DNA of 64,000 bases, taken from NCBI GenBank assembly GCA_963921795.1, contig OY997647.1, positions 58,505,065-58,569,064 of the forward strand, in the 5' to 3' direction. Under the pieces are notes generated by a model. That model was not told the origin of the DNA. It was given only the letters and a program-made list of their open reading frames with translations, and ran no database searches. The DNA comes from Nannobrachium achirus. Taxonomy: Eukaryota > Chordata > Actinopteri > Myctophiformes > Myctophidae. Both the position numbers and the translations under genes were made by a program. Below, in pieces: positions 3,602 to 61,620 of this stretch (its first letter is position 1; the number at the start of each line of letters is the position of its first letter).

Positions 3602-4066
3602 CAGGGTTCCCCAATTAGTTTTCCCCAAGGGCCGAATTATGTCTAGGGTACCAAGCCGAGGGCCACAACATTGCAGGGTGCGACGGTGGCGTTCCCACTA
3701 CTCCATCGACTGCGACAATTCAGATATCGTCGTTGTCTGTTGAAAATCTTCTACAGTATGTCCAAAACTGCTCGTTTTGCATTTATCATTTTAAAAATGA
3801 TTTAAGCTAGTGAAAACAGCCGATCTACAAGCACACAACGCCTCGCACTGCGAGGCGTTGTGTGCATGTAGATCTGCTGTTTTCACTACTTTTGTGCGAC
3901 GGCCTTGTATGATTTGCGAAAGAACGCTCAAATTTGGAGATACGAGATTTCCACACGACAACGACGATATACTAGTGTTGTTGCTGCTCTTATACCACCA
4001 TTATTACTGGGGTTGGTGAGGGCCAGACAGTAGACCGGCCCGCGGGCCGCCTATTGGGGAACCCTG
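3602..4066. mobile_element. hAT MITE with 8-bp TSD
   Basis: The terminal inverted repeats are CAGGGTTCCCCAATTAG on the left and CTATTGGGGAACCCTG on the right. They are flanked by a perfect 8-bp duplication GTGTAGAC at 3594-3601 and 4067-4074. The interior is mostly occupied by a second, nested MITE. Confidence 0.9.
3727..3967. mobile_element. TA-flanked MITE 'A', copy 1, with central hairpin
   Basis: The ends are TCGTCGTTGTC and GACAACGACGA with TA on each side, suggesting a Tc1/mariner-type target. Sub-terminal words (aaaacgaacggt, acaaggtttc, caaatttggagatac) are shared with copies at 26,702, 32,271 and 37,540. A long palindrome (3809-3887) sits near the centre. There is no coding capacity. 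Confidence 0.8.
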
Positions 4067-4264
4067 GTGTAGACCAAGCCGGATGCACCATGGTAGAGTT
4101 GAATCCACAACATCCGTGGTGGTGGGCAGGGACTTTTACCACTGCGCCTCATTATTTTTTTGTACATTACATGTATTAAAATAAAATTGACAGTGACCTA
4201 GGTTTGCAACAGGTTGTTTCTGTGTCGGTTTATTCATTTGTTGTTCGCTCTCTCACCTCTCAAG

Positions 4265-4622
4265 GCGTACCAAACCTTCGCCAACCGGGTCTCCCACCTG
4301 AAGAGGAAGCTGGACATCCTGAAGAACGAGTTACCAGACATGGATGAGTCTCCCATCCCCTCACCATCAGCGGACGCACCATCTCCCACAGGCTCCGAGT
4401 CCCCCTTCCGTGGCCTGGTGACATCCAACCCAGACCCCGATCTAGATGGCTCCGCTATGGACGATTCCGCAATGGACGACGAGGCCGAGCCTCCGGCTCC
4501 CAGCCCCCTGTCCACACCCGGAGGGTCCCCCAAAAACACCTTCACGGTCGGAGAGAGCGACAACATAGAGGTGGAGGACATGGAGTTGTCTGAAGATGAG
4601 ATGGAAAGCGGTGGGATCATTG
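4265..4622 (+). CDS. rprd2: rprd2 exon: coiled coil and acidic region
   Basis: The exon follows a pyrimidine-rich acceptor (ctctcacctctcaag) and ends before GTAAGTTG. It is 358 nt long, starting in phase 0 and ending in phase 1. It encodes AYQTFANRVSHLKRKLDIL, the end of the RPRD helical/coiled-coil region, followed by a Ser/Pro- and Asp/Glu-rich linker with SPTGSESPF and VEDMELSEDEMESGG. The first is the strongest family signature in the window. Confidence 0.93.
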
Positions 4623-7600
4623 GTAAGTTGTTGAAGCAAGGGCTGGAAATTGCGAAAATTTTGGTTACAAATGCGCCTAAAATGTAATCTGTGCAACCTA
4701 AATGTATAACTGGGAGCACCTGTGCGACTACAAATTATTGCTGTGATGCGACCAAAACGGCCGGTCGAGTGGACCAAAACGAGCGCTCCCTGCCACCGGA
4801 GAAAACAAACGTGCCGTATAGCCGCTCCCTCTGAGCTGCAGTGGCTCTAGATGTTAATCTAATATCATGTAGCGTGTTAGTTTGCTTATTACAACGGAGC
4901 GATGCTGGGGCATCGCTGATCTCAGACATTCCATCGCTTTTATGTGCCGCTTGTCAGAAAGCAGCCTACTTTATTAGAAGTATCTGTAAGTTGAGAAACA
5001 ATCCAGTTGGTTGCATCACGGCATGGAGAGGAGTAAACTGTGTGTGTGTGTGCGTGTGTGCAGGGGTGTGTATGAGCATGTGTGCAGGGGTGTGTATGAG
5101 CATGGAAAGTTACTCTATTGGGACAAATGAGTTTCAAAATGGTTGTAAATATTCTTAAGAAATGTATATGCCAACACAGAAAACCTGATCAGTGTGCATT
5201 GTCCACATTTGAAGTGAGTAGGCTCTCGTAATGTATTATAATGGCATACACCTCATAAACCATGTTATATTTACATTGCAATTATTTTATAGCTACGAAT
5301 GTGAATTATACTATCCATATTAAGGCTATGAACAAAAAAACGGATGAATGTGTGATTGGAATCAATTAGGGATGTTAACAATTAATCGATTATTGATTTT
5401 TTTAAATGTTTTCGCCTAGTGAAAGTTACAGGTATAGTGTGTGTGTCTCCCATCTCTCCCACGAGTTGAGACCCGCTGAGACGCGCACACAGTGTGTGTT
5501 CCATAGGCTAAAAGCCCAACCTCTCCTCCTCCTGAGTCCTGTCTCTCTTCTCCCCCTCTCACTGTCTGACACTGGCAGTGGCTGCTGAAATGCGTAATTT
5601 ATAGTGCACATATCATGCACGCCCATGCACAGATCATACACCATGTTTGTGCAGGCTGTTCACAGCTTTAAAAAAAATCCGATTGGAAATCCGTTCAGGC
5701 ATTCTTGAGATAATAGCCATTATGTTTTACATGTTATGTAAACAAAGATGGCTGCCCTGTATGAAAGATGGAGTTGTATGGGGGTGGAACATGCAAAATC
5801 GCGATTGAAATCATGTTTACTAGATTTAATGGGGTCCAAAAATAATTTTTCAAAAAAGAAAATAAAAAAAAGAAACTTTTATTTGTATTTAATTTTTTCA
5901 AACGTCATACTCGTCATAGGCAGAGTGGACCCATAAATATAACTCGTCAAACTAGTCATAAGCAGTAGATGAGTTAATTAACTATTTTACTGCTAAACGA
6001 GTGCTCATTCTTTGTTTCACATGTCTGCCACGCCATAACGAGCGTTCTTTTATCTGTCTGAGCACTGTAAGCAGATGAGGGGTGGCGGGGGTGTGTACAG
6101 TAGCAGCAGCTCCCGTAACGTTAGTCTCAAATCTGGAGCGCACATGAACAATAATGGCGGCGGGATCACTTCTTTGGTGTTTTGGTGTTTCGTCTTTTGG
6201 CGTTTCTCTATTTCTGTGTATGAAAACTGATGCAAACAGGGGGGGAGGAGCCTCTCGCTCCCTAATCGCTGCGCTCATTCTGTTGTGGATTTTCTCACTG
6301 CTCCGTGAGCGATGCAGCTTTTATTTTACACAAGACCGCGATAGGAAATAATTTATGGCTATTTTTCTATAAATTCGCAAAGGTAAGCTACTTATATGGC
6401 TGTGAGCAGACTGTAAACAACCTAAATGGCGGCGAAAAAGTTAATTTTCTCCAGCTGTGTAGCTTGAATTGGGCATTGGTAAAAGTTAGAGCCTCCATGA
6501 CCGTTTGGTTGACAACAATAGTTGAGTGCTATTTGGCAATTCTACTTAATGCTAGAGAGCATGCCAAAGCTAACAACATGAATGCTCTGAACCCCTAGTT
6601 GCTCCCGGTGAGCAGGTTGGTGCCTTGCATGGTTTCCTCTGCCACCGGTGTATGAATGTGTGCGTGAATGGGTGAATGTAATGCACAATCTATGTAAAGC
6701 GCCTTGGATAAAAGCGCTATATAAATGCACCATTTACCATTTACCATTTATATGGAACGGATTTCCCCGGTTAATGTGGAATAAAAGTCTCCCTTCAGCT
6801 TTCATCAGGCAACAGAGTTATAGGAAAGTGATAGGAGAAATGTTTGCCTGGTCAGAAGTAAATCAGTTGGATGCTCTTGTGTTTACAGTTAGACGCACAC
6901 ACAGTGTGTTACAGTGGTTCTCAAAGTGGGGTCCTGGGACCCCCAGGGGTCCTTGGGGGGGGTTACAGGGGGTCCCCAGCTGAATGATAGCTAGGAACCA
7001 AATGGACCCTTATATACTGTAGGTCTGTAACTCTGAACAAAATGGACTCATTCCATTTGTCCACTTGATTTTATAATATCAATTGGGGTCCCAGCAATAT
7101 AAATATATATACGTAAATGCGGGCCAGTAGCCTAATTCATGTCAAATTGCGGGTCCTTGAAAATAAAAAATGGGAATCACTGCTAGAGCCGTAAGAATCT
7201 CCTCTTATGTTTGGTCACTTGGTCCTAAAAAAACGCCGCTTATCAGTTAATCGCTAATCGATCGATAATGTTATCAACTATCAATTAATGAATTAATCAA
7301 TAATTTGCAGCCCTAGAATCGATGGAAGGGTCTCATCTGGAGATGTTTTATACCTCCATCAGTGGGTCTCTGACCGACATGGATGGATGAGGGACTATAC
7401 AGTTTAAATTCGGGACCCGGATGATTGCATAAAGCCCCAGAGGTGGCTCCTTTCACCATTCCATGTTATATTTTATTCATTTAAGAACGCAGATAACATA
7501 TTGGTGCTCCTTCCATTTTGGTGGGTGCTCCTAAATTCTTTCTGGTGCTCCTAACATTTTAAACTGGTAGCACCAGTGCTACCAAGTAAAAAAGTTATTA

Positions 7601-10600
7601 TTTTTTTGGTTAAAGGAGCATATCAGCGTATGTTTTAGACCATTAACTACAACTAATTTATACTTTACATTATGGCATTAACGACTTGTGATTTTTGCAA
7701 GTCGACTCGACTCAGTAAAAAGTTGAGTTGAAGTTGACTTTATCGTTTGATGATGTCATCACATCACACACAACTCCCCAATTATTTTGGGGGGTCCCCA
7801 GATGATTAACTTAATGTGCAACATTGTTTTCTCACTCAACTGTAAACAAACCAACAAAGTTTAAGTGTATAGAGGGTATCTTCACTTTTCTAAAGTGACA
7901 ATTTAAGGACTTTTTAATACCTCTAAAATGCCAAATTAAACATTGTCCAATTTGTCAATTATAGAGAGGCAGAAATTGTGAAAATAGCCGATCTACATGC
8001 TCGATGCGAGGCGTTGTGAGCATGTAGATCTGCTATTTTCACAATAGAACCAAATGTAATTTTTTTTTTTCAACTTCGACTTTTGACTTTCTCTGTTGGG
8101 AGTCGACTTGTGTAATAAAGTCGACTCAGTCGACTTGTTGACTTTTTCGTTAATGCCTTACTTTACATTACTGCATGCAATTGTCCAAACCATATCATAG
8201 TTTTAGATTTTTAAAATGTTCTACTCCAGTAAGCCTTTGGTTTCCATTCATTTTAGTACGTATGAAAATCAAAGAACATACTGTATTTAGAAACCTCCAA
8301 GTTGTATATGGCTGTGGATTCCCATACAAGATTTGTGTTGTTAAAATGTCACACATGTATTTAAAATGTGCAAGATATTTTTTAAATGATAATCTACAAG
8401 ACCTCAAAATGCGCTGATACGATCTATTATGAGCTTGTTGTAATGTGTATATAGTAGGGGTGTAACGATATAGTAACTGTATCGAAATATCGTTTTTAAC
8501 TTAAAAAATCGAAGTATATCGAAATGAAAACAGCTAAAATCGAATCGAATCGTTTTATTTTGTATCGTATCGAATCGGCAGTGCAAAGAATCGATTGTAT
8601 CGATACTACCTACTTGTGCATTGTATTTAGCATTTTTAAGAAGAAAAAATTAAAGGGAGGGGTTTAATTACTTTTCCTTTCCATATAGCTACACTGGTCT
8701 ATCGATAAATGTGTGTTATCTCTGGGTTCATGTCAAACTGCAGGTTTGTCAATATACAATGTCCATGTATTTGGCAGATAATCACTGTGTTTACTTATTT
8801 ATATCCATAATAATACATGTTTCCCTTAAAAACCTGCACTATCCACACCTTTCACACAGATTTAATTTCTTTGCTAAATAGTTACTATATCGATTTTAAA
8901 TCATTGAATCGAATCGTATCGTATCACCATGAATTAACCAATATCGTCCATGTATCGTATCGTCAACCATGTATCGTGATATGTATCGAATCGCTATTAA
9001 AATGTATCGTTACACCCCTAGTATATAGGGTTAAAAGTGGTTAAATTGATATTCATGCAGTATTAACACATTTCGCTGGGGACCCCCTGGAACTCCTTCT
9101 AGAACATTGGTTCTCAACCTTTTCAGGCCGCGACCCCCAAAATAATCACAACTTGTGAGCATGTAGATCGTCTATTTTCACAATTTCTGCCTCTTTAATT
9201 TGTCATTTTAGAGGTATTAAAAAGTCCTTAAATTGTCACTACCTAGAAATGTGCAGTCTCTAATAGTCTATCAACTTAATATTGGTTTGTTTACTGTTGA
9301 GAGAGAAAACAACGTTTCACATTAAGTTAATCATCTGGGGAACCCCCCAAAATCATTTGGGGGACCTGCCCTGGGGGTCCCGACCCACAGGTTGAGAACC
9401 ACCGCTCTAGGACCCCACTGTGAGAACCACTGTTCACGCTGTACAAATGCCGGGAGAATGGTTGCCATAGTGGCTGATAATAAGAACATTTTGTTGAGAC
9501 AATGTAACAGCGAGTCCTTGCTGCCATGGTAATTACTGAAATCGATCGTGCCGTTGCGCAACAGCTGTGAATGACTAATGGTGTATTTGTCATGTGCAAT
9601 AACCGCACAGTAGATTACTTTTGTATCTCTGGCATGTTGTCCGTTTTTTATTGTATTACACATGCTTTTAGGGCTGTCACAATCATTACATAATCGTCTA
9701 ATCACAATTATTTGAGGTAATCGCAATTAGCAGATCTACAAGCAGATCTACAATAGCAGATCTACAAGCTCACAACGCGTCGCGATGCGAGCTTGTAGAT
9801 CGGCTATTTCCACTCTCAATGTTCTTTTTTTAAGTATAAAGTTGTGAAATATGTCAGTAATTTCTTTGTATATTTAGGTTATGTGTCATATTATCTACCA
9901 TGTGCAACTTCAAAGCCTAAAAGCCAGAAATGTAATTGTCAACGACGAAAACACAATTCAATCGTTAATCGCAATTATTTGAGTGACAATTAATCGTCAT
10001 GTAAAATGTCATAATCGTGACAGCCCTACATGCTTTGTCCATTAGTAAATATATAAAATTACTCAAATGTTTCTACATGTTTTCTCTCCCTGTCAATTTC
10101 TCACCTGTAGTTGAGGAGCAGCCTGTTAAAAGCCCTTCCTCCGAAGTGGTGTCAAATCCGCTCCCTGTACTGCCTGCAGACACTCGGCCGTCGTTGGCAT
10201 CAGAGGCACCTCCTCCTGTCACGAATGCAACAACTTCTTCATCATTTCCTCCTGCTGCTGCTCCTGCTTCTGCTCCTGGCCTGTCCAGCATTGACCTGAA
10301 TAAAATGAATTCCCTCATCAGCAGTTTGACCTCGGCCTTGAAGAATACAGGTGAGTGACAATGTGTTGTCAGGTGAGTGACAATGTATTTGAAGAAATAC
10401 CTCTATTAACACTTCGCCAGCCGAAATAGAATGGCTTGTTGGTAGATTAGCCGTGACATTTCTATTATTATATTATGATCTGAACAGCATTCATTTTACA
10501 AGATCCATCAGCGCAATATCATGTATTCTCCATCCCCCCACCCCCTTCACGATTCCCCGTTGAAATCTCACCACGATCAGCAGTGAAATTCCTCAATCTG

Positions 10601-13600
10601 CATTGGCATAGAGTGGAGGTTTTGGCCGAGGCATCTTCTCCCCGTGCGTTTCGCGTGCGCGATCCGTTAACGTAAATGTGGGCGCAAATAATCCAAGTCT
10701 GACTCTACAGTCAATGTGAACATTTTCGCTAGCTTAGCCCCTAGCACTCCAGCTATGCTAACGTTAACGTCTAAACCATAAATGGATGAGAGCTGGGAAG
10801 CTTTAGCAGTGAAAGGACCTGACGTCACTTCCGCTTCATGTCAGAGGAGCCATGCACTATCGATGGACGAGCGGTGACTAGGGAAGGTTAGACGATCGAT
10901 CGATTTTCGGATAAAAATCTTTTATTTTGTTTTTAATGACCCAGTACGGTAAATTACGGCCCGGCTGAGACTCCTTGCTCAGATGTCCGGTATAAACGTT
11001 TTTTATCTCTGTCTTCTCTAGGAGCCCCTGTTGAGACGCCACCTCCAGGTCCTGGCTCCAGCTCCTTGTCAGCACAAACCACAACGTTGCCTCCCTCCGC
11101 CTCAGGCCTGCCCAAGGACGCACGCTCTCTAGTCAGCATGCTGTCCAAGGTGGACATGACTCCTGGGGACCTCCTCAGTGCTCTGGCCAAAGCCCACGGT
11201 CAAGGCGGTGGAGTACAGGGTGAGATGTTTACACTGGTTATCTCTGTCTTAGATTGGAATTTGCAAAATTGGAAAAGTGAACTTAGCAGTATGACATCAT
11301 GTGACATTTATGTGGAGTTTAAACTAGAAAAATACTTACTGTGTGAAAACCTTAATTATAGAAGGGCAATCTGTAATTTCAGAGTAAATAACACAAGAAT
11401 TCCAAAGGTTACTGGCAGATATAAAGGGTTGGAAAGAAGCCAGAGATTTTGTAACCTATGCAATGACAGCAATGACAACAGAGTTGGGGATGAGTACCAT
11501 GTACTGTTTGAGTGTAAGAACCTTACTATTGTGAATCTCAGACAAAAATACTTGCCAAAGTACTATACAACCCATCCATCTATGTGGAAATTGATTTTAT
11601 TACTACAAGCCGACAAGGCAAAAGTTATATGTAAATTGGGAGCTTTCCTAAAGAACACCTTGCCCTTGTTCAAATAATGTATCATGCCTGCTTTTCTGCT
11701 ACGTCTGTTTGAATGCTATTGTAATGTTTGTTATGTTTTGTATACTATTTATGTATATAATATGTGCTGTGATCCATACCATGTGATCATGGTCGAGAGC
11801 TAAATAAATGATGATGATGATGATGATATTATATGAAGAACATTTACATTTACTCTTTTAACAGATTTAATAGATGTGCCATTAAAAAAAAAAAAAGAAT
11901 GTTATCCTAAAATGATATGCCCAAAAATAGGGACGCCAGGTTGAATGTGGTTAAATCTGTATTCTTTATTTTGTATGTTAGTATGTTGCATGTGCAAGGA
12001 ATTTAACTTGAAGAGGTTGTTGCATTCTAACAACAACATGAACAAATAAGAACATTTACATTTAAAGTTTAAAATGCAAGACAGCCTTAAAGGGATATTT
12101 CACTTTCAAAAAAACTTTTGTTCATTTTATCGTCTAATTAGCACCCTGGACAGATTTTAATTTGCTTCATTCAGTATTTAGATATTTGATGTAAATGTTA
12201 TCAGGCCATCCCCATCCAGTGCCCCTCCCCATACACACCCATTGTAACTTCAAACTCCATTTTAACCATGATAGATTAATTAAAAACACCCATTATTATT
12301 TCTAGTGACTCATAACACCCTCCTAATGCGTGGGCTGGCCGTGTTTTTTCAATAACGTTTTTCATTTGTTTTTTATACTTTAAAAAAAAAAAAGATTTTC
12401 CATTTTCCCAAAGAATTATTAGAAATAAATGAAAAAAGTTAACGAAAAAAAACGTCTCTAGACAAAATAATGGGTGTTTTTAATGAATCTATCATGGTTA
12501 AAATGGAGTTTTAAGTTACAATGGGTGTGTATGGGGAGGGCCTGATAACCTTTACATCAAATATCTAAATATTGAATGAAGCAACTTAAAATCTGTTCAG
12601 GGTGTTCACAAAAGCCTGATTAGACGATAAAATGACCAAAAGCTTTTTTGAAAGTGAAATATCCCTTTAATAATGGCGTGGCCTCCCTGTCTAGCCTTGG
12701 AACTATCAGTAATAAGTTACTAAATTATGTCTGCAGTTTGTGAACAAGGCTAAACTTTACAAACTCAAAATGCTTTCCTGCGAGGCGTCATCTTAAACTA
12801 TTGTCACCATAAATGAAACAAACGTCATCGGAGTTCGCAAGCTGTGATTGATGGAACTTATCACCTGAAGAAAAATAAGCGATTCGTTTCCCCATTCTCA
12901 GCCAATCACAAGCCAAGTCCTTACCAGCCCATCCTAAGGAAACAATCTAGAAAGCCTGTGTCTCTGTTCTTACTCAAAGCGTTTTCATAGTTATGCTCCT
13001 TGTCTTTGTTAAAAAGAGGTGCCTGCTTTCTGCCATCTGCCCAGAAATGACTGATATGACTGTTGTATGCATTTCTTAAGTTTCATATTAAACATTTAGG
13101 TGTTAACTTGTATTCTTTCGTGTTCCCACAGGTCTCACCTCCTTCCTTACCAATTCAGTTGCAACTGTGTCTTCGGACTCATCCAGTACAGGCAAGCCTC
13201 CTCCATCTCTCTCCTCTACTCCTGCATCAACGGTCTCCAACAGAGGCTTGTCTCTCCCTTCCCCCACGCCTGTTCCCTCTCCACCCATCTCCGCTGCGAG
13301 GCACAGTCCCCCGAGAGCGACCCTCCAGGAAGCTGCCCCCCAGACACCATCCCCCCAGGTGCCCCCCGCCCATCAGGCATCAGCCCAGCCAGCACCGGCC
13401 CCCTTTGCACCTGCCCCCCATGCACCACCAGCCCGCCAGCCGCCCGTCCCCCATGTGCCAGCCCCCCAGGTACCAGTCCACCAAGCAGCACCTCTCCTGA
13501 CCTCAGGTGCAGCTTCTGCTCTGCCCGCCCATGCACCCACACCCCTCGTGCCTGCCCCCCAGCAGGCACCAGCCCACCAAGCGCCTGTCCCCCATGCGCC

Positions 13601-15590
13601 CGTCCACCAGGCGCCTGCCCCCCGTGTACCAGCCCCCCGTGTGCCAGCCTCCCAGACGCCGGCACCCCAGGCAGCGTCTCTCCTGACCTCAAGTGCAGCT
13701 TCTTCTCTGATCTCGGCTCTGCACAGAGACATGGATCTCCTGGCCGAACCAGAACCAGAACTAGAACCAGAGCCCTCACCGCCTTCGCAGAGCCTGGATT
13801 CCAAAATCCACAGCTTCCTCCATGGGAATCCCGGTTTCAGCTTTAGCCTGGGCTTTGCCACCGACGACCCCGTCCTGGGAGGCAGTCCGGTAATTGGCAC
13901 AGACACCCGGGACGGGACCCCCGTGAGGGATGAGGGCGGGGGCACCCCTACTCAAGACGAGATCATGGACAAGCCAGTCGTGGATGCGCTTGAGTCCAGC
14001 ACCAAGCAGCCGTCTGCCGTGGACACCGCTGCTAAGACAACAGACAGCAAGTTGTCTCCCCCAATCTACCAGGCTAGTGCCTGGCAGGACTCCGCAAATC
14101 CACAAAAACACGTTCACTCGCAGCCAGGGGCGGCTCAAAATGGGCAAGGCTACCAACCGTACCCATATGGTAGCCAGGTGGCGGTGGAGCATGGACCGGC
14201 AGCACCTGTTGAATGCTACCAGCAGATTGCAGGACAGGGGACGGGCCCAACACCAGGGGAGCAAGCCCCTCTCAATAGGGAGGTTGGTACAGGTTGGTAC
14301 GGATACCCAGATGGAAGTGTCCTGCCCCCTAGTGGCTCTAGTGTGGCCACCACCCCAGGAGTAAGCCATGAACATCAGGCATCACACCCATACCCTTACC
14401 ATGCAGACCAAACTCTGGAACCTCAGGGGTCAGCCTCCCAGCAGGGAGCAGTCCCCTCCTCTGGCTTGTTCCCCCCTGTCCCCACGTTGCCGCCTCCTCC
14501 AGATGGCTTGAAGCCGGCTCTGCCTGCCGTGCCTGGTGGTGAGATGGTTCCTCCACAGGGACAAAAGTTGCCCAATCCAGAGATCACGGACGACACGGGG
14601 GTTAGAACGGACAGTGTAATCGGTAGGATGGTGATCCACGACCATCAGCATAAGTCGGTGTACCACACAGACAATCCCCCGTATCGCGTTGAAGACGTTC
14701 CCCGCTACCCCGACGGAAATCACCTCCGCCCTGACGGAATTCACGCCGGTCACCCTGATGACATTCGCCGTCTCCCTGACGGACTCCACCGTCACCCGGA
14801 TGACATTCTGCGTCACCCTGACGGAATTCTACGTCACCCTGATGAGATTCTGCGTCACCCTGACGGAATTCTACGTCACCCCGATGAGATTCTCCGTCAC
14901 TCTGGTGGAATTCTACGTCACCCCGATGAGATTCTGCGTCACCCTGACGGAATTCTACGTCACCCCGATGAGATACCGCGTCACCCTGACGGAATTCTAC
15001 GTCACCCTGGTGAGATACCGCGTCACCCTGACGGAATTTTACGTCACCCTGATGAGATACCACGTCACCCTGACGGAATTCCTTGCCGCCCCGATGACAT
15101 TCCCCGCCACCCCGACGAAGTTCGCCGTCACCCTGACGACATTCACGGTCACCCGGACGCCTTCCAACCTCACTTAGATGAGTTGCTGTACCAGGAAGAT
15201 CTGAGACGCTACCACGACGACCTTCGACGTGGTGGCGAGGTCCTGCTCCCCCCTGATCATCGCAGACTCCTTGACCAGCCTTACTATGGTCCTCCAGATG
15301 ATCCTTACCATAGACGCAGCCCCTCTCCCCCCTTCTATGCTCACGGGAGAATGCCGCCACCGCCTCATCTTGAAATGCACCACCCCGGCCCGTGGCCCCC
15401 TCACCGCCCCCCTCACCCTCCGCATCGCCCTCCTCACCCTCGGGGGATGCCACGTGGACCAATACGACCCCTCCTCCAGCCGTTCCGTGGGCCCGAGCCA
15501 CGGCTGCGGGGCAAGCGTCCTCCGAGAGGACCCGGACCCGGTGGCCCCATGTTCCCCCAAAAAAGACCCTACTTGCCCCCACGTTTTTGA
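4265..15590 (+). CDS. rprd2: RPRD2, C-terminal part (join of four exons)
   Basis: The coding join is 4265-4622, 10111-10350, 11022-11219 and 13132-15590; all junctions are GT/AG and keep frame. It gives about 1,080 residues of RPRD2, a nuclear CID protein that associates with the phosphorylated CTD of RNA polymerase II. The N-terminal CID is outside the window. Visible hallmarks in order are the coiled-coil block AYQTFANRVSHLKRKL, the motif SPTGSESPF, an acidic VEDMELSEDE stretch, a hydrophobic block SSIDLNKMNSLISSLTSALK, a second block SLVSMLSKVDMTPGDLLSAL, a conserved LDSKIHSFLHGNPGF and GTPVRDEGGGTPTQDEIMDK. The Pro/Arg tail ends in KRPYLPPRF. These match vertebrate RPRD2 in order. The region is largely low-complexity and probably disordered. 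The Pro/Ala block and the RHPDxIL repeats are expansions I do not recall in mammalian RPRD2. Which teleost paralogue this is cannot be told. Confidence 0.92.
6598..6751 (+). repeat. Fish SINE 3' portion (V-SINE-like tail)
   Basis: The sequence runs from 'ggtgccttgcatggtttcctctgcc' through 'tgtatgaatgtgtgcgtgaatgggtgaatg' to the conserved tail AAAGCGCTATATAAATGC, then a short tandem 'ccatttac' trailer. The same body is seen attached to a tRNA-like head at 57.95-58.17 kb. It is the common teleost tRNA-derived SINE tail, here lacking its head. Confidence 0.7.
6912..7182. mobile_element. hAT-like MITE (CAGTGGTTCTCAAAG)
   Basis: It begins CAGTGGTTCTCAAAGTGGGG and closes with ATGGGAATCACTG, a degenerate inverted version. 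No convincing 8-bp duplication is visible. It shares the 'aaccaaatggaccctta' word with elements at 18.9, 23.9 and 59.4 kb. Confidence 0.5.
7680..8160. mobile_element. Degenerate palindromic element with nested hairpin element
   Basis: The outer arms are rich in the words aagtcgactcgactcagt and gtcgactcagtcgacttg in opposite orientations. The middle holds a truncated copy of the 'gattaacttaatgtgcaacattg' hAT family, interrupted by a palindrome at 7975-8045 with arms attgtgaaaatagc and gctattttcacaat. Boundaries are approximate. Confidence 0.5.
8455..9020. mobile_element. hAT element (TAGGGGTGTAACGATA ends)
   Basis: Inverted ends TAGGGGTGTAACGAT and ATCGTTACACCCCTA enclose 566 bp of tatcgaatcg-rich sub-terminal repeats. 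A perfect 8-bp duplication GTATATAG lies at 8447-8454 and 9021-9028. No transposase frame is present. Confidence 0.9.
9105..9404. mobile_element. hAT MITE family B, short copy
   Basis: It begins CATTGGTTCTCAACC and ends GGTTGAGAACCACCG, with imperfect 8-mers TTCTAGAA and CTCTAGGA on either side (6/8). Half of the family's central hairpin (gagcatgtagatcgtctattttcac) lies near 9153-9180. It belongs to the same family as 44,202-44,563 and 45,958-46,370. Confidence 0.7.
9669..10028. mobile_element. hAT MITE (TAGGGCTGTCAC ends) with central hairpin
   Basis: Ends TAGGGCTGTCAC and GTGACAGCCCTA are flanked by a perfect 8-bp duplication CATGCTTT (9661-9668 and 10,029-10,036). Inside, at about 9729-9820, are tandem copies of 'agcagatctacaag' and the inverted 'gcttgtagatcggct' around an acaacgcgtcgc-type centre. 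Confidence 0.9.
10111..10350 (+). CDS. rprd2: rprd2 exon: first hydrophobic helix block
   Basis: This 240-nt exon lies between acceptor tcacctgtag and donor GTGAGTG, in phase 1/1. It encodes a Ser/Pro/Ala-rich linker followed by SSIDLNKMNSLISSLTSALK, equivalent to the conserved LAKISSILSSL-type block of RPRD2. It fixes the gene assignment independently of the first exon. Confidence 0.92.
10351..11021 (+). promoter_or_regulatory. rprd2 intron with CpG-rich patch and CRE-ETS motif
   Basis: There is no exon. From about 10,620 to 10,900 the sequence becomes CpG-richer and contains TGACGTCACTTCCGC at 10,820-10,834. This is a perfect palindromic CRE overlapping an ETS core, a pairing common in housekeeping promoters. 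No transcript start or exon can be assigned, so promoter activity is only a possibility. Confidence 0.35.
11022..11219 (+). CDS. rprd2: rprd2 exon: second hydrophobic helix block
   Basis: The acceptor is ttctctag and the donor GTGAGATG; the exon is 198 nt. It encodes a Pro/Ser linker and SLVSMLSKVDMTPGDLLSALAK, the counterpart of the NILSKVEITPESILSALSK-type block of vertebrate RPRD2. The reading frame stays open past the donor into a LINE remnant. Confidence 0.92.
11225..11830 (+). mobile_element. 3' end of a non-LTR retrotransposon (LINE)
   Basis: An open frame to the TAA at 11,675-11,677 encodes a C-terminal LINE-type segment. It has a Cys/His cluster, FCNLCN then DEYHVLFEC, typical of the zinc-knuckle-like tail of several LINE ORF2 proteins, followed by RQKYLPKYY. 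Downstream are 'gagctaaataaatg' and a (GAT)n tail at 11,808-11,827, as found at LINE 3' ends. The element is 5'-truncated within the intron just after the rprd2 donor. The clade is not determined. Confidence 0.75.
12087..12670. mobile_element. Foldback MITE with TTAA ends (piggyBac-like)
   Basis: The whole 584 bp folds on itself. The left arm (TTAAAGGGATATTTCAC...) and right arm (...GTGAAATATCCCTTTAA) are imperfectly complementary along most of their length, including the inner words 'aaacacccattatta' and 'aataatgggtgtttt'. A TTAA at each edge is the target signature of piggyBac-type elements. There is no coding capacity. Confidence 0.85.
12671..13131 (+). other. rprd2 intron, no features
   Basis: Ordinary AT-rich intron sequence ends in a pyrimidine-rich acceptor tract (tattctttcgtgttcccacag) before the last exon. 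I see nothing else in it. Confidence 0.7.
13132..15590 (+). CDS. rprd2: rprd2 last coding exon
   Basis: The exon follows acceptor gtgttcccacag and runs open for 818 codons to TGA at 15,588-15,590. Its parts in order are: LTSFLTNSVATVSS, continuing the previous helix block; a Pro/Ala/His-rich low-complexity block (about 13,300-13,720) built on APAPHAPVHQ-like words; and an EPEPELEPEP acidic stretch. Then come conserved LDSKIHSFLHGNPGF (13,794 on) and DGTPVRDEGGGTPTQDEIMDK. A Tyr/Pro-rich region precedes eighteen RHPDxIL heptads (14,790-15,167), a His/Pro/Arg-rich region follows, and the conserved terminus is FPQKRPYLPPRF. High GC and a 21-bp repeat open long frames on both strands, which are not genes. 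Confidence 0.93.
14790..15167 (+). repeat. rprd2: 21-bp coding minisatellite, RHPDxIL heptads
   Basis: Eighteen consecutive 7-residue units (RHPDDIL, RHPDGIL, RHPDEIL, then RHPDEIP, RHPDGIP variants) lie in frame inside rprd2. DGI and DEI units mostly alternate, so there is also a 42-bp higher-order period. Degenerate units extend upstream to about 14,730. Copies diverge slightly and no unit breaks frame, suggesting selection on the protein or a recent expansion. Confidence 0.92.
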
Positions 15591-20003: not shown

Positions 20004-22080
<2,077 letters not shown>

Positions 22081-24138: not shown

Positions 24139-47919
<23,781 letters not shown>

Positions 47920-51783: not shown

Positions 51784-51800
51784 GTACAATTTAGAAAAAA

Positions 51801-52600
51801 AAAGGTTGAGTTCGTCTGCTCTGTGATTCTCCAGAAAAATGAGTGACTATTGACTAATACAAGTAAATGTAAAAATGTGTTTGTAATTTAAAAGTGAATG
51901 CCTGCAAAACTACTAATTCAGAATAGGCCTTTTATCACTAATACCATGTTATTGCCTTATTTAAAGTGAGTCTTTCAGGGGTCTTTGCTGCTCTCTATGG
52001 GACCTGGCGAGTACTGCAGAAAGTGGGCTGTTGTCATTTGGGAGGGCAGGGCCTGGTATCCTAGACAGGATTTCTGGTCTTATATAAATCGGTGAAAATT
52101 AAACAATGTATTATTTTCAAGGCTGTCTAATAGATGCTGCCTAGGAGCCAGTGGCGTATCCAGGAATGTGCAACTTGTTTCCACTATAAAGCAACAGACA
52201 GACAGACAGACAGACCATCAATTATATTGGTGCCATTTGTTATTGAAGTCCGTTAGCATAGCCTAGGTCAAGTGACAGACTGTGACACTGCAGACAGGCA
52301 TACATTCTAGAGGTTGTGCATAAGTCTATATTCGGAATATATTAAAAACAATAGGAATTGTTCATGTTATAATTTTGTTTCTTAATCAAATGTTTATAGG
52401 CCTATAGACTATCAGCCTTTGATGGTAGAATCTATCGTATTTGAGTCTCTCTGTATTATAGCCTGCAGACAAATAAATAGGCACAGACAGACAGACGGAC
52501 GGACGGTAGGTAGGTAGGTAGGTAGGTAGATAGATAGATAGATAGATATAGGCCTACATTATCTTAAATGCTGCCACTAACAGTGTGTGCCTCTCAGCCT
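51801..52600. other. Intergenic sequence with short tandem repeats
   Basis: GACA repeats (52,196-52,216) and GACG, GGTA and GATA tetranucleotide runs (52,488-52,549). No gene is seen. Confidence 0.6.
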
Positions 52601-52719
52601 CGGGCTCGGGGTTATAGTAGGCGCCGGGCGGTATTAGAATGTTGTATCATTTTATGATTCAACCACTATGGGGAGTGTTTCCTGCCTCTGCCTCCAGGTT
52701 TTGGGTTTGGTCAGATGCG

Positions 52720-53335
52720 TCAGGTCCGAACACGCCACCGCGTTCCTTTCAGAGCGTCGACGTCACTTTAAATAGCCGTTCTCCGCCCCCTCCAGGCTGC
52801 TGCTGTGCTGTCTGCTGCTCTTCTACTAGCTACAATTATTAAATACACACCACTGACTGACTGCAATACTAGAGAGAGCCATTGAGCAAACCTCGGCTAA
52901 ACCGCAACGCTATCAGGCCTGCTGAACAACTTTGGTCTAAAGGAAAAGTAACTGAGCGTCTCGTTTCATTCGGCTGTATCGGCGAGCCTTGAATCACCGC
53001 AGCAGCAGTGGAGAAAGTGTTTTTAATTCATTTTTTTACATTATGTATAGGCCTATAGCCTATATATTTTTTTAAAGGCTAGATGAAAATGCAGCAAACC
53101 CGGGATTAGAGAAATCGAACATCTGGTAAATAAAGGAGGACGGATCGCATGCGATTGGATCGGAACATCATCAACAGGTCAACAGAACAGAACAGGGGGG
53201 TTTTCCCGGTTCATCACGGCGAGAGATCCGCATGAAGATTCACGCGGTTCCGACCAGGAGAGAAGATTGAGGAAATCAGCGGCAGCGATCATCACGTAGC
53301 GAGAACATCCTACCTGCTCGAACCACAGCACAGAG
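52720..53335 (+). other. Candidate promoter and non-coding exon of a downstream gene
   Basis: A CpG-rich block contains GACGTCAC (CRE-like) at about 52,760 followed by tttaaatag. About 570 bp later it ends with CAGAG|GTAAGTTC at 53,335/53,336, a strong splice donor. Two short upstream frames overlap as ATGA near 53,232: ATG at 53,149 to TGA at 53,233-53,235, and ATG at 53,232. The coding part must lie further right, beyond what I can identify. The product is unknown. Confidence 0.45.
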
Positions 53336-54768
53336 GTAAGTTCAACCGTTAGTAGGCTACTGTGTAGTAGTGACCGTTAACCCGCGATCACACCTATGTA
53401 TGTACCGGTAGTCTACGTATGGAGCACACCGCTGGCAGCAGGTCCGTTTTGATGTCCTGTATGTGTGCTAGGTGCTTCTCTGTATGTCTGCAAAAGCTTT
53501 CCTCGAGGGTCAAAAACTACAGAACCGTGCAGCGCACACACCGTCCTAGATTGCTATTTTTTAGACCCAATGAATGATTATACTCATCTAATCTGCAGGA
53601 GTTTATGTTTTTTATATAAATTATGTATGATACAGGGCAGGCTATGATACACAGAGTTGCACACTTGGCTGCACGGATGAGCTTGTTGAAAGGACCGAGC
53701 GTGACTCGGTATCAAAGTTTACACAGCTCATATCGCCGCCGTCGCCTTTCGTTCTCATCTTGGGTGGTATTTGTTTAGGAACGGGGGCTGATAAAGCGAA
53801 GGTCGTGTGCGTTTTAAAATAGGCCTTAAACATAACCACGCGACCACAACAGTCAGTTCAGTCGGCTCAGACAAGGAACAGTTGTTTAATAGGTCAGAAA
53901 GAAAGAAAATGGGCCCTTTGTAGTTTTGTAGCTGCCGCTACACCCTTTCTGAAAGCTCCAAAAAGAAAAGTTGACTGAAGTCGACCGGATGGCGGATGTG
54001 TGAGCAATGCTTCTGTTTGATCTGACGCGTGTATTTTAGAGTTAGGTAACAAACAACGTCTCCCACTACGTGAAGAAATCGAAAACATTACGTCGGGTTT
54101 CTTTTTTGTCTCGAAAAGGGGAACTTGTTGTCGAGAATTCCCTCCCAACGTTTAACGGTGGGACAATTCCGCTATGTCCGGGTGTTGTCACGGAAATCGG
54201 TGACCTGTCGAAATGTGTGACCACCAGCAGCACGTGAAGTGATTTTGTTTGGCGTTATTGTTGTCTATGCATTTATAACGATACAAAAGACGGAAAGGCT
54301 GCATATGGGTTATTTATATATACATAGAAAAAGTAAAATAAAATATATCATTTGACAGTTAACTTTAAAATTACAATGGAGTGTATGCACAATTAAAAGA
54401 GGATCAGTGCAACACAAAAAAACTATGAAATGTAGACATTTTCCTTCGCATCAGCCATCAGTCCGATTAAATAATCACAACGAATGTACAATCCATTAAC
54501 AATTTTGCTTAAACACGTTGATTGCGAAACGGCGACCTCTGGGGTCACAATTTGATAGGTCACCAATTTCGGTGGTACAGGGGGAGCCACCCAATTGAGC
54601 CATGATGGGTTCATAGTACTGATTCTACTGAACCACTCCCTGGAGGAGTTAACACTACGCCAACAGCGCAACAACTTGTCTCGTATGTCTGAGTTCTTCC
54701 AAATCTAAACTCTCTACTCAGAGGCCGCAGAGCATCCTCCTCCTGACCGGTTCCTCTTCCTCTTAGAG
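53336..54768. other. Region after the orphan exon, no recognised features
   Basis: Moderately CpG-containing unique sequence to about 54,700. There is no exon with a recognisable product, and it may be the first intron of the unidentified gene. Confidence 0.4.
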
Positions 54769-54888
54769 CTGTAGTAGCCTACAGTGGTTGTCAGGAGGAG
54801 TGGACCTTCCCAGATGATTAACTAAATATTAAACATTGTTTTCTCACTCAACAGTAAACAAACCAACATAACGTTTAATAGTATAGAG

Positions 54889-54997
54889 CAGGGGTGGGCA
54901 ACTTTGATGATGGCGAGGGCCACTATATTTCCACCGTCACTCCAGAGGGCAACATACAGTAGCATGTGGCCCCCGGGCTGCCAGTTGCCCATGTATG
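54889..54997. mobile_element. 109-bp hAT deletion derivative
   Basis: CAGGGGTGGGCAACTTTGATG to CCAGTTGCCCATGTATG, with 8-mers GTATAGAG and GCATAGAG (7/8). It is the same family as 34,349-35,096. Confidence 0.85.
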
Positions 54998-55084
54998 GCA
55001 TAGAGGGTATCTGTCCATTTCTAAAGTGACAATTTAAAGACTTTTTTAATACTAAAGTGACAATTTAAGGACTTTTTAATTGCG

Positions 55085-55905
55085 ACCATAGGTCGCATTT
55101 ACTATCAAACCCTGCACAAAGTGTAAGTCCGTCTGTCTGTCAGTCTGTCTGTCACACCTCACACGTCACACTCTTGCCCTGCTCATATCTCCGCAACCGT
55201 TGCCCCGATCCATGCCAAATTTTGCACACACCTTCCTTACCTGCCAAACTACAACCTCCAAGGACCCCCGGAGCTCCAGGGACCCTCACCCCCAGATGTA
55301 AAAAATGACCAAATGTGCTAAACTGACCAAATGACCACCCCCACGGGGCTGCTCACGGGGAATTCCCGGGGACCACCCACTCCTGGTGCTCCAGAACGGA
55401 TGCAAAAGTGGTGGCGCCCCCAGTGGAGGACCCCCTACACTGCAGCTCACATAAAATGCCGTAACTCCGGCTAGGAGCGACCGGGACAGCCGGGGCCGGT
55501 ACCTATTCGTCCGCCTTGCCGGCGCGGAGACCCCACCCCTCATTTCTCACATGGCCCTCTTCTAGCGCCACCATGAGGCCGATTCTTGCAAAACACATTT
55601 TTGGACACTGCTCCTACAATTTTTGCCCTAAAATCACGCAAATCGGTACACAGTATGTCTACACTCATCCCATCAACATGAATCTCTCCCATATAGCGCT
55701 ACCTTCAGGCCGATTTTTAAAAACACATTTTTGGACACTGCTCCTACAGATTTTGCCCTAAAATCACGAAAATCACTACACAGTATGTCTACACTCATGT
55801 CATCAACATGGATCAGGAAGATTTTGGCAAAACACATTTTTGCCCTATTTGTGGAGATAAGTGACCTACGGTCGCTTATCTCCCGATTAGGGAGTGTTAC
55901 TGGTA
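55085..55905. repeat. Fish 'gcgccaccatgaggccgat' repeat
   Basis: It begins tgcgaccataggtcgca and ends gtgacctacggtcgc. The words 'ctagcgccaccatgaggccgat', 'gcaaaacacattt' and 'cactgctcctacaattttt' recur internally and again at 62,760-63,640. A further relative ('gacctatggtcgc', 'actatcaaacactgc') is at 47,458-47,740. No protein is encoded. Confidence 0.7.
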
Positions 55906-56250
55906 CCTCTAAAATGACAAATTAAACATTGACCAAGGCGTTGCAAGCATGTAGATCTGCTATTTTCACAATAGAACCATGTTATACAAAATGTAATGCC
56001 TCATCTCTTAGTGCTTGTCGGGGGGGTTCAAATATGAATCTTGAGCAGGACTCAATGGCTAGTGGGGCCGTCTGTGAGCTTAAGGTTGCGGTCACTATGC
56101 TAATTAGTGTTTTGCCTTTATTTTCGAGTATTTGCTGGCTTCACTGATGGGGACGGGCGGTCTGAGTGAGGGGGATGGGCTCCAGGCGTCCCCCTCGTGC
56201 TGCCGGTGCTGGGTCGCGGCCTGAAAAGGTTGAGAACCACTGCTGTAGTA

Positions 56251-57434
56251 GCCTCGGGATCCATTTAATTCGTAGACTACAGGCATTCACACTCCACCTG
56301 CCCCAGGTAAATAAAACTTTGGGGCAGGTGAAGTTTGCTTTCAGGTTGCCCGACCGGGCAAGTGCTCATTTGAGAGGGGACGCAACACGAGATATGTCTA
56401 AACACCTGAACGTGGCCAGATCGCTTTGTCTTCTGGTCTGTGGTATGTAAAATAAGAGCACTGATTACCTATTAATTGCTGGTTTTACTGTTGCTACACT
56501 TAAAAATATAAACTAACAAGTGTGAAACCATAGCCATATTCAATCATAGCTATGTAGGTATTTGGAGGTATGATATTTTTTTATCACACAGCACCCAGAA
56601 AGTAAAGAAATGTGTGTTAAATTGAGCGGTAAATCATACCTGTCATTTTATAATCGTCGATTTACCTTTCGGGCAAGTGGGCATGACCTTTGGGCAATTA
56701 GAACATGACCTGTACTTGCCCGATTGGCAAAGGGCCTCTGAGACCTTAGTGTCAACCCCTGAGACTAGTAGTCAATCAGCTCTTCAGAGTGGTGTAACGT
56801 TTTCCATTGGGTGGATTGCTCATGCTCAGTCTCCTGCTAATGTACCACTTTGGATGGAACACTAAAGCTACACCACTAGTACGTGTGCTTTTTTAGTATG
56901 AATGTCACCACACAACCTCTAACCCTTCTAACTTCTAAGCAATTAACAACCATAACACAAAATATATGGTTGGATTCATTTTCTAATTATGAACCGCTTC
57001 ATATACTTTGACTGGAGTCCACCCATACGTTTCCCCTCTACAACAAATCTCTTAGATATTAAATAGCTTAGCTAATCTGTAGATCTGCTATATTTGCCAT
57101 AAACCAGTCTAGGGTTTATGACTTAATGGGGTTGAGTTGCCGTTTTCAACATGATGTACCACACAAGCCGTTTAAACTTTAAACTCCATGCAGAATATCT
57201 GTTTTCCAGTTTGTCACCAAGTGGGACACGGAGAAGATGGCCCTTGATAGAATTCAGTTCCCCACTTGCATAAAATAACCCCCGGGTTGTTCCTTTGTCA
57301 GTCGAATCATGATCATCAAGAACACCTACTGAGAGCCCATTCTCCTCGCCTTTTGCACACATGCTAAACTAGGTCTGTTTAGCATCCAAAAGCCTTGTTA
57401 ATGTGATACCTTGTTGTAGGTTCAGGGGGTGGCA

Positions 57435-57491
<57 letters not shown>

Positions 57492-57930
57492 GGGGGGCAA
57501 ATAGTCATAGGAAAGGAAAAAAGAAGATGAAAGAGAACAGGCATCTATTCATATAAAAAAAATACTTGTACTATGGCAATATTACTATGAATGTTAACAT
57601 CCAAATAGGCCTGATACTTTCACCGCACTGGAGCGCCATTGGAGGGAGAGGGCAGTTGCCTGTTCTTGTACTTTCCACACACTGTCAGGAGCACATACAG
57701 TTATGACAGACAATCTAAACATCAGACTGTTGAACAAGCACTGAGCAACATTTACATTGACAAACCTGATGCTGTATATCCTACCTCATCTGATTCTAAC
57801 CGCTAGTAACCTCGAGTATTATATCTGTGACTATATATTCTGCTATTTTTATTAACTGCCTCAGACATTGCTGTTTTTTGATCGGTGCTCCTGGAAGGAG
57901 CTAAGCTAAGCTCCAACCAGGTGTGGCCTA
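56251..57930. other. Repeat-derived and unassigned sequence
   Basis: 'ttgcccgaccgggcaagtg' and 'cttgcccgattggcaa' words at 56,345 and 56,718 suggest an old inverted element. A (GT)n then G-run is at 57,438-57,497. No gene was found. Confidence 0.5.
57438..57497. repeat. (GT)n followed by poly-G
   Basis: About 37 bp GT passes directly into a run of 23 G. Confidence 0.95.
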
Positions 57931-57944
57931 CATCTGGCCTACAT

Positions 57945-58170
57945 CAGTGGTTCAGGGGTAGAGTGACCGGTTTGGAACCGTGAGGTTCCCAGTTCAATCC
58001 TGGGCTCCCCCAGAGTTGGTGTCGAAGTGTCCTTGAGCAAGACGCTGAACGATGTGCAGGTTGGTGCCTTGCATGGTTTCCTCTGCTGTGTGTGTGTGTG
58101 TGTGTGGGTGTGTGGGTGTGTGGGTGAATGTGTGTATGTGTGTGTGGGTGAATCTATGTAAAGTTACATT
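57945..58170 (+). repeat. tRNA-derived SINE with GT-expanded middle
   Basis: The tRNA-like head has a B box GTTCAATCC (about 57,992). The body 'gtgtccttgagcaagacgctgaac' and 'ggttggtgccttgcatggtttcctctgc' matches the copy at 6598. A GT/GGT expansion replaces the tail. Confidence 0.75.
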
Positions 58171-58305
58171 ATTTCACCCACTTTTTTACACATGTAAACT
58201 TGTGATGCGACAAAGCAGAAGAAATTGAAGTTGAAATATTGATTTAAAAGGAAAGGAAAGTGGCTCCGTAACCAACTGTAAATATCAGTGTCTGCACTGT
58301 AATGT

Positions 58306-58828
<523 letters not shown>

Positions 58829-59340
58829 TGACTATCTACAAGCCTCTTGTCAAAAGGGGGACATTCATTTTCGGACCAAATCTGGTCATTAGAAAAATAT
58901 CCTAGCATTATATCTAGAAATGCATTACACGACAGAATTTTTCTCAATTCCCTGTTTCTCAATTCTTTACCCAATGCTCCACTGTTCCTACATGCATCCT
59001 ACTGTACGTACGTGTTTCTTCATGTGGCACAGGAATATCCATGTTTGTGGTTGTGTTATATTCTGACTAGCCTCTGTACCTACCCAGGCTTTTATTGTCA
59101 TTCTATTCTGACCCTGTCTTGGAACCCATCGTCAAATGAAAAACGGTGCCCTCTCTGTTTTGTATCTCTTGAGAGATTAATTCTGACCTGACCCTTGATC
59201 TCCTTTAATATTGGTTGATTGTGATGTTGTTGGCAATCTTGGAATTTGGACCTAGTTCTGTTGTGACGATGCAGAAAGAGCATTACTTGGTGTCTGTAAG
59301 ACCAGGGGTCTGAATGTTAACCACTTAAACCCCCTAAATT

Positions 59341-59522
59341 AGTGGTTCTCAAACTCTCTGAAATTTTAAGGTCTCCCCTTAACTTTGACAGTGTACAAAT
59401 GGAACCAAATGGACCCCTTAGGGTCCATTTGTACACTGTCAAAGTTACATACTTGTAAGGGGCAATTTAGACCCCCATAAAGGAACATAGAGAGTCCCTG
59501 AAATCCAATTTGAGAACCACTG
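59341..59522. mobile_element. hAT-like mini-element with its own inner palindrome
   Basis: Ends AGTGGTTCTCAAACTC and TTTGAGAACCACTG. The centre (59,383-59,446) is a near-perfect hairpin with arms tttgacagtgtacaaatgga. Confidence 0.7.
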
Positions 59523-59578
59523 CCCTAAATTACTTGGGCGAGGGTCGGCTCTGCTTTACTTCCTTCTACAGTGTAGAG

Positions 59579-59989
59579 CAGGGTTGTCCAAAGTGCGGCC
59601 CGGGGGCCAAATGTGTCCCGAGGACAAATTGTATACGGCCGCAGCTTCATTCCTAAATCTTACCGCCAGCACTGTCAAACAACAGAATATTTTATAGTAC
59701 AATTTATCAGGATTCTGACCCTACCTTGCATGTATGGTTACATTTGGTAATGTGAGTTATTTGTGTTTTGTTCAGAGCACACACCTGACAAAAGACCATT
59801 GATATTAAGTATTGATAATGATAGTTAAATAAAATATTGTAATTTTGATGCATATGTTTGTGACTTTTTTATGGTCCGACTGAAAGTACATTTTGTCAGG
59901 TGATATAGTCGGCCCTAGTCGGGTGTTTTAATATTTTCTAATATGGCCCCCTTTGAAAAAAGTTTGGACACCCTTTATTATTTTATTTG
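59579..59989. mobile_element. hAT-like element (CAGGGTTGTCCAAAG)
   Basis: It opens CAGGGTTGTCCAAAGTGCGG and contains AGTTTGGACACCC near the right end. The 8-mer GTGTAGAG precedes it (59,571-59,578) and recurs at 59,990-59,997, although 17 extra bases follow the inverted repeat. The right boundary is provisional. Confidence 0.5.
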
Positions 59990-60029
59990 GTGTAGAGTCT
60001 ACACCAAATATCTTTGCCGAAGATACCGT

Positions 60030-60080
60030 AGCCGATCTACCAGCTCACGACGCATGGTGAGCTTGTAGATCTGCTATTTT
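60030..60080. repeat. Solo hairpin of the shared family
   Basis: gtagccgatctaccagctcac / gtgagcttgtagatctgctat around gacgcatg. Confidence 0.7.
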
Positions 60081-60659
60081 CTGTGAATGTTTCCCCCAGA
60101 ATAGGCAAGGGTTCTTCAAGTGGTTCAATCTAGATAAAGGGCAGATTTCTGATATAACGGTGTCAGTGTGGCCACTGAAAATCCCTGATTGATGACATTT
60201 AGACTTATGTTCATCCCTGCACGGTGTGTTTCCGGGCCTAGTTCTTGTACTTATTGCAACACTCTTCCCGAGGAGTGAAGATTTACAGGCGGAGTACATT
60301 CGTCATTTTGAAATTGTAGTAAGCTTATGATTGGGCAAAGTCCACACACAGTCTTTGTTAATGAATCTGTCTAAAGTCAGGAGACCTGTTTTTTTCCCCT
60401 TCCAGCTACACTGTTTCCTGTTGGTTTACTAGCCAATTATTTGAGCTCTCCTCATGACTGTAAATGTCATTTTAATCACATAAATGGATCTAGTTAACAC
60501 ATACTGTATGCATGTTTTTGAAGAAATGTAGGGTAGGTATTAAGTGCTCAAAAGTAAGTGCGTATAGGCACAGTGCCATCCAAAAGTGAAAGAAGAGACA
60601 AGGGCACTACATTAATTCTTGTGTTGGGTTACTTATTAACTATATACTGTCGTTATGTG

Positions 60660-60725
60660 TTGCTATTTATGTGTGGAGGCTCACCTCGCATACCCCTGCT
60701 GGCCTGGGTTCAAATCCCGACAGAG
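60660..60725 (+). repeat. tRNA-like SINE remnant
   Basis: 'ggctcacctcgcatacccctgctggcctgggttcaaatcccgac' keeps a B box (GGTTCAAATCC) but no intact tRNA fold. Confidence 0.45.
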
Positions 60726-60939
60726 CATTTCCCCTCCTGGAGCCTTCCTTCCACTGGCTCCCACGTAGTTGTCTCAAAAATGGAACGAATACAAAGCTTT
60801 ATTGACCTCCTGTTAGTTTTAAAACAAAACACCGAAAGTCACACACATTTCTATTGGTCGTTGTGTTCGTATTTGACATAATTTTTTAACCCATTTAGAA
60901 CTGGTACACATTATTGTGTATCATTATTTTATGCTTTAA

Positions 60940-61620
60940 CTATTGAAAAATAGCAGATATACTGAGAAATAGCAGATACAAGCTCAGATAGCAGATACAA
61001 GCTGATACAAGCAGATACAAGCTCACAGCGTGGCACCGAGTGCCGCGCTGTAAGCTTGTAGATCTGCTATTTTTGAAAAATCGTGAAAATTAGAATTTTG
61101 GCACGATTCTATAAGTGTCTTTTGAATCCTTCTAAGTTTTTTTTGAAAAACCTATGTTTCTATAGCAGCAATCTGGCAAGCCATCGTCAAAGAAAACGTC
61201 TTTTTCACTTAACTGGAGCTCAGTCAGTCTGTTCTTGAGAGACTACTATGTCAGCAATCTCTCTAGACAAGAGTCAATGATGGCACAGAAAAGGGACAAG
61301 TGGGCGGTCCCTTTTCGTGACGATGGCTAGCCACAATGCTATGTCAGTGGTTCTCAAACCTTTTCATGTGGGACCCCCAAAATGATATGTATTTGGCCAC
61401 GGACCCCCATCTCAAAATATTTAGTTCCAGGGACCACCCAGAAGCAAAATTTGAGTTACAAACGTTCGCTTTGAAAATACATAATTCAAAGATTTGCACA
61501 CGTCATTTTCACAACTTTTCCCAAAAATGGCAGATATACAAGCTCGCAGCGCGGCACTCTGTGCCACGCTGTGAGCTTGTATATCTGCTATTTTTCAACA
61601 GTTAAAGCATTCAATAATTC
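60940..61620. mobile_element. hAT family C composite, degenerate
   Basis: Two hairpins (60,943-61,077, with several tandem 'gcagatacaagct' fragments, and 61,522-61,597) flank 'cagtggttctcaaaccttttcatgtgggaccccc' at 61,347 and 'gaagcaaaatttgagttacaaacgttcgct'. The layout matches 35,615-36,198. Confidence 0.7.

Follow-up and report, generated by a model that had tools for sequence, protein, structure and literature searches.

A 71-base palindrome, referred to here as the core, was found mid-position in many otherwise different mobile elements of Nannobrachium achirus (Myctophidae), both in the window, that is, the whole 64,000-nucleotide stretch that was analysed (GenBank assembly GCA_963921795.1, contig OY997647.1, positions 58,505,065 to 58,569,064), and across the genome. 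One core is common to hosts with differing arms and ends, as the first-pass annotation of the window had proposed, and these hosts make up at least seven repeat families. In our judgement there is about an even chance that an old clan of miniature inverted-repeat transposable elements (MITEs), piggyBac-like and flanked by TTAA, has the palindrome as its conserved centre, and that this clan became nested in other MITEs and was copied along with them.

Presence and copy number of the core

The genome containing the window comprises 564 contigs and 1.66 Gb; each of contigs C1 to C24 exceeds 49 Mb. The genome was sampled at 20 loci of 10 kb each, taken at round coordinates on 20 contigs (189.7 kb N-free), and core copies were accepted with ≤4 mismatches. 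The sample contained 36 full and 43 half core copies, and extrapolation from the 36 full copies gave an estimate of ~315,000 full copies genome-wide (95% bootstrap 218,000-429,000). A 19-base core arm had 215,348 exact matches in the genome, where an intact palindrome may count twice, and a 28-base half core had 30,095; the reversed control had 0 in each case. By the same mismatch rule the window contained 15 full copies, one of them counted double (9724 and 9750, with a common right arm). The density of the core is thus not peculiar to this window and is genome-wide.

Within the window, the real 21-base arms gave 17 and 26 matches at ≤5 mismatches, compared to a mean of 0.13 per strand for shuffled arms (maximum 1 in 100 shuffles). 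The palindrome was seen by eye in all 18 intervals where it had been listed, and both 20-base arms were within 6 mismatches in 16 of them. The two that failed the two-arm test were 30680-30738, with a left arm one base short, and 44365-44445, with a disrupted right arm. In the short copy at 36022-36064 the two arm matches overlap, and the left arms at 60030 and 60943 have 5 mismatches each. An extra short two-armed core at 28665-28704 was absent from the earlier list. A 22-base core arm had 0 exact matches in viral and prokaryote sequence collections, and no description of such a palindrome was found in the literature within the collection and terms used.

Co-variation of the core arms

Pairing between the two core arms was evaluated on every copy with a length of exactly 71 bp, 29 in total, from loci other than L001-L008 and the later piggyBac loci. 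Arm pairs matched in 90.3% of cases versus 84.4% in shuffles, changes on both sides occurred at 15 of the 35 pairs (reached by 1 of 500 shuffles), and double-change cells numbered 61 versus 24.8 (reached by 0 of 500). Because the core copies share kinship, these shuffle counts are no probabilities. At pair 21, 19 copies had U-A, 10 had A-U and none was mismatched, and this absence of one-sided intermediates is direct evidence of paired change. Pair 5 was U-A in 18 copies, C-G in 7 and other in 4; pair 31 was U-A in 21, G-C in 6 and U-G in 2. The arms were mismatched at the same place, pair 9, in 16 of the 29, with the rest of the palindrome staying matched, which makes this one persisting asymmetry. 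Since the arms co-vary, they are either corrected against each other or kept paired. An earlier count on 32 chosen copies (16/35 pairs, 0/500) gave a slightly better picture and was not used; that set was without the two most mismatched 71-bp copies (L014:7282 and L025:1752) and included five from L008 or piggyBac loci.

TTAA ends and larger units

In families D, D', E and B and in the window copy at 40458 the shared sequence is longer than the core and ends in TTAA. In D, the sequence on both sides of the core extends to a GTGGTTAA end, CCACTTGAACC is present at both ends, and the core lies between two TTAA ends in copies L034, L009:6928-7123 and L024. The copy at 40456, previously described as free-standing, can be taken as the middle of a TTAA...TTAA stretch of 170 bp (40420-40589) with unit ends CCACTTAAACCC and CCCTGGG. 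The 30680 copy, which had been described in the same way, has flanks that resemble an A-clan arm, as judged by eye alone.

Inspection identified 27 ends at which the likeness of different contexts breaks off at ...GGTTAA; 6 of them came from loci retrieved with D or another target in mind, and several have no core nearby. Eight of these ends share one outer flank, 5 a second and 2 a third, and the other 12 have 12 further ones. Such differing outer flanks are as expected for an element inserting at TTAA. In the 20 sampled loci and the window, where 23 ends were found with a slightly wider motif, a core arm lay ≤140 bp inside the end in 12 (at least 5 of them family D) and outside it in 4, compared to 9.3% for random strips. 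Genome-wide, the combination GCTATTTT-N22-52-AAGTGGTTAA, running from core end to TTAA end, was found 20,560 times and its reversed control once; at a spacing of 300-330 bp the same pair was found 837 times and the reversed control twice. Arms with a TTAA end from D, D', E, 40458 and B, which were chosen for that end, aligned above shuffles in 10/10 pairs (p 0.000-0.004, 500 shuffles).

For family E, TTAA was predicted on both sides of the unit from its arms. It was found on the left in L103 and L025 and on the right in L103 and L104; L025 also contains the core, but its right end reads TGAA. The right end of E matches its left end poorly. TTAA on both sides, as in piggyBac-type MITEs, was accordingly seen in the D copies with a core and in the window stretch, and in E only in L103, which is core-less.

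D, D', E, B and 40458 are most simply accounted for by a TTAA-flanked MITE clan with a conserved palindromic centre, nested in larger elements, and the same origin is plausible, by extension, for A, C, F and G. The clan agrees with piggyBac-type TTAA MITEs in having TTAA at both ends of D copies and of the 40420-40589 stretch, a high copy number and many piggyBac transposase frames in the same genome, and perhaps also in ends beginning with CC. It differs from them in a 71-bp palindromic centre common to diverged families and in its putative amplification inside other hosts. The Kolobok T2-MITE of Xenopus is likewise described as a long-lived TTAA MITE group with many subfamilies (PMC6004289); there AGGRR adjoins TTAA, whereas here it is CCACTT or CCCATT, and our ends were collected by searching for those motifs.

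Host families and their arms

Sorting by flanks gave families A, B (whose elements hold two cores), C, D with D', E, F, G and others. The hAT superfamily labels of hosts follow the first-pass annotation and are putative. For family A the TA target duplication was dropped in favour of a 4-bp A/T-rich duplication, which reads better by eye in five copies (AAAT, ATAT or ATAA); the window copy at 37643 and one copy in L077 fit it poorly.

Extensions and arms within families were compared on hand-read consensus arms. Just outside the core there is a symmetric stretch of 5 bp in A, 6 in C, 4 in D, 6 in E, 6 in F, 11 in G, 7 in D' and 1 in B. Past this short extension, left and right arms showed no likeness above shuffles in 8/8 families, and a whole-arm inverted duplication around the core was therefore rejected. 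In a wider comparison 37 arms were aligned with one another (666 pairs), of which the 45 best pairs scored at least 22.0; among 468 random arm comparisons 1% exceeded 20.5 and the best reached 25.5. The highest-scoring pairs were members of one family. Cross-family scores above the random maximum were E-R/40458-L (38.5), A-L/F-L (32.5), D-R/40458-L (30.0) and D-R/E-R (28.0), and arms of different families were mostly unalignable.

The cores themselves are 76-94% identical between families (mean 87%; one representative each, seven families), so that a domain is conserved across elements with unrelated flanks, as in a highly conserved domain of other mobile elements. Cores so alike beside arms that barely align call for correction, exchange or selection. 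One alternative, which we regard as unlikely though the best of the rivals, is that the palindrome is a functional conserved domain (for protein binding, as an enhancer or as a small-RNA hairpin) that is kept or exchanged by recombination or template switching. The high core similarity across unrelated or barely alignable arms and the paired substitutions would both agree with this, and two precedents have been described. The V domain is a highly conserved domain common to short interspersed nuclear elements (SINEs) and the MER6 MITE (PMC6887750), and it resembles the core as a conserved internal domain across elements with different ends, spread by a DNA transposon; it differs in coming from SINEs, and it is not known to be a palindrome. 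No SINE host of the core turned up here, where no search aimed at SINEs was made. In piggyBat, the transposase binds imperfect palindromes in the left end, likewise inside a piggyBac element, although those described there are short and near the tip (PMC11707139), unlike the central 71 bp found here. The conserved-domain explanation is opposed by the window having no Rfam family at gathering score, and by the frequency of central deletions, which argues against strong selection on single copies.

Copies that appear empty

Joined-flank searches were performed for F, G, D and E, with 40 copies scored for each out of >1,000 candidates, and many copies aligned through the junction. Three of the 15 rows in F were without a core and stood within a graded deletion series. 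All four apparently empty copies of D hold remnants of the unit. Six of the nine in E keep a piece of unit arm scoring above 99% of random scores, the other 3 being ambiguous. In G, 4 of 17 copies were full or nearly so, 2 were without core letters and two more, by eye, had only the last core letters. L053 and L057, the G copies without core letters, lack the core and keep GTTGCGTGCTG; in the tree of G copies each of them is paired with a remnant-bearing copy (branch supports 0.73-0.89).

As the junctions are mostly deletions, the comparison of filled and empty copies, which had been put forward as the way to define insertion junctions, does not demonstrate insertion in this genome. Proof of insertion from empty sites was abandoned accordingly, those collected from families D, E, F and G being mostly products of central deletion.

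These copies bear on the mechanism first suggested for the palindrome, a tiny element of ~75-90 bp that moves alone and takes the symmetry centre of palindromes or hairpins in other MITEs as its insertion site. Nesting as such does occur; as a general case, homing of the palindrome alone into hairpin loops was not upheld, and we consider it improbable, slightly more so than a functional domain. In its favour are the separate symmetric extension of 1-11 bp next to the core in each family, the cores being more alike than the arms, the retention of GTTGCGTGCTG in the two core-less G copies, and the E copy L103, whose TTAA ends and arms are what core insertion into a core-less unit would leave behind. 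It is opposed by the shared sequence of D, D', E, B and 40458 ending at TTAA rather than at the core, by the core-less copies lying within a graded deletion series or pairing with remnant copies, and by the 40456 copy not being clearly free-standing.

piggyBac transposases

A search of the genome with PF13843 scored 116 frames of 952 candidates, all of them over the cut-off, and a transposase of the piggyBac superfamily is thus present in the genome. Several sets of frames on different contigs have identical scores and lengths, and recent piggyBac activity is likely from this pattern. Four of the transposases were compared and were 44-56% identical to one another. A cluster of 16 frames lies on C2 at 71.34-71.85 Mb, with two more found in a further search, and several families share a ~130-bp tandem repeat on their downstream side (L070, L072, L082, L084).

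The flanks of eight sampled piggyBac families were scanned over 1.1 kb on each side at ≤6 mismatches, with ~350 bp beside the gene outside the data for most families. Core arms were found upstream of the transposase in 6/8 families and downstream in 0/8. At the same threshold, 76 of 170 sampled 1.1-kb pieces (45%) also held a core arm. Four upstream cases were inspected, a set that did not include L069, L071 and L079, and consisted of A pieces (600-aa and 572-aa genes), a G piece (561-aa) or pieces that were D-like by eye (562-aa and 572-aa). The family of the 528-aa frame has upstream of it a different, perfect palindrome of 80 bp (L081:964-1043). A role of the core as a cis-element on the 5' side of autonomous piggyBac transposons, with the MITEs as their internal deletion products, is suggested by the upstream bias and is nevertheless highly improbable, given the 45% base rate, the upstream copies being A, G or D-like repeats, and the unrelated palindrome of the 528-aa family.

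Features of the window

Positions of the core copies and associated TTAA ends are given in the table. Apart from these, the window contains an 807-aa open frame at 13167-15590, with a 21-bp coding minisatellite at 14665-15252 and no Pfam match at E 0.001, and a tandem duplication at 376-1096 with 265-bp and 139-bp units, the copies of which are at 100% identity.

Table. Core copies, half cores and TTAA ends in the window, with family or arm type.
Window positions	Feature	Family or arms
3809..3887	core palindrome	A
7975..8045	core palindrome, shortened centre	C
9159..9178	half core	C-R arm
9729..9820	core with duplicated left arm	F
20253..20329	first core of pair	B
20545..20609	second core of pair	B
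25169..25172	TTAA at outer end of left arm (TTAACCACCTTCAACC) of 25245 copy	
25242..25316	diverged core; left arm ends in TTAA	right arm A-clan type
26759..26881	core with duplicated right arm	A
28409..28428	half core	B inner arm
28665..28704	short two-armed core (40 bp)	B
29582..29601	half core	D-R arm
30680..30738	core, 59 bp	flanks like A-clan arm by eye
32348..32429	core palindrome	A
33407..33695	pair, two half cores	B
34946..35019	core; left arm common to L010:6012 copy	
36022..36064	short core (43 bp)	B
37643..37721	core palindrome	A
40420..40589	TTAA...TTAA stretch (TTAACCACTTAAACCC...CACCCAGGGTTAA), core at 40458-40513	
44365..44445	core, right arm disrupted	C
46186..46253	core	C
55947..55966	half core, left half missing	C-L arm
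60025..60080	core	D/D'-type arms
60886..60889	TTAA (TTAACCCATTTAG), left end of unit holding cores 60943 and 61522	B
60943..61077	first core of pair, left arm rearranged	B
61522..61597	second core of pair	B

Discussion

If the palindrome is the conserved centre of a TTAA-flanked MITE clan, the clan would have been a very abundant group of elements of ~150-300 bp with a palindromic centre, probably mobilised by piggyBac transposases. Its copies would have used TTAA sites as targets, on several occasions within other MITEs, D and E being the clearest hosts. Amplification of these composites by the host transposase could then have carried the palindrome into different families. Its central position may have arisen because insertions nearer the ends would destroy mobility. 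The other arms would have diverged in the meantime, and the core arms would have stayed matched through hairpin- or cruciform-templated correction, or through selection for pairing. Palindromes would continually be lost by deletions through their centre.

Several observations weigh against a nested TTAA-flanked clan. No TTAA-bounded unit with defined ends was seen in A, C, F and G, which also speaks for insertion or exchange of the core alone. Among the E copies in hand, none has the left TTAA, the core and the right TTAA together, and one E-like copy (L022:8350) is without the unit. A clean pre-insertion TTAA site was found in 0/4 of the apparently empty copies of D and 0/9 of those of E. L103, with both TTAA ends and both arms and no core, may be the product of a central deletion or may never have carried a core, and to that extent it moves weight from the clan towards a palindrome that homes on its own. 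The lack of likeness between left and right arms in all eight families compared counts in the same direction as these points. Finally, the cores, as judged by sequence identity, are more alike than the arms suggest, which simple descent would not predict.

A broader proposal, which we put forward tentatively and with less confidence than the nested clan, is that a 71-bp hairpin-forming module with ~300,000 copies in one genome is exchangeable and passes between unrelated MITE families, its arms being self-corrected. Such a module may travel by nesting, conversion, template switching or insertion of its own. If this is true, the core would be to DNA transposons what conserved domains are to SINEs, and the genome would offer natural replicates of a single palindrome by the hundreds of thousands. 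The shortening and correction of palindromes in the germ line, and the origin of shared interiors in MITE families whose ends differ, could then be tested from sequence alone.

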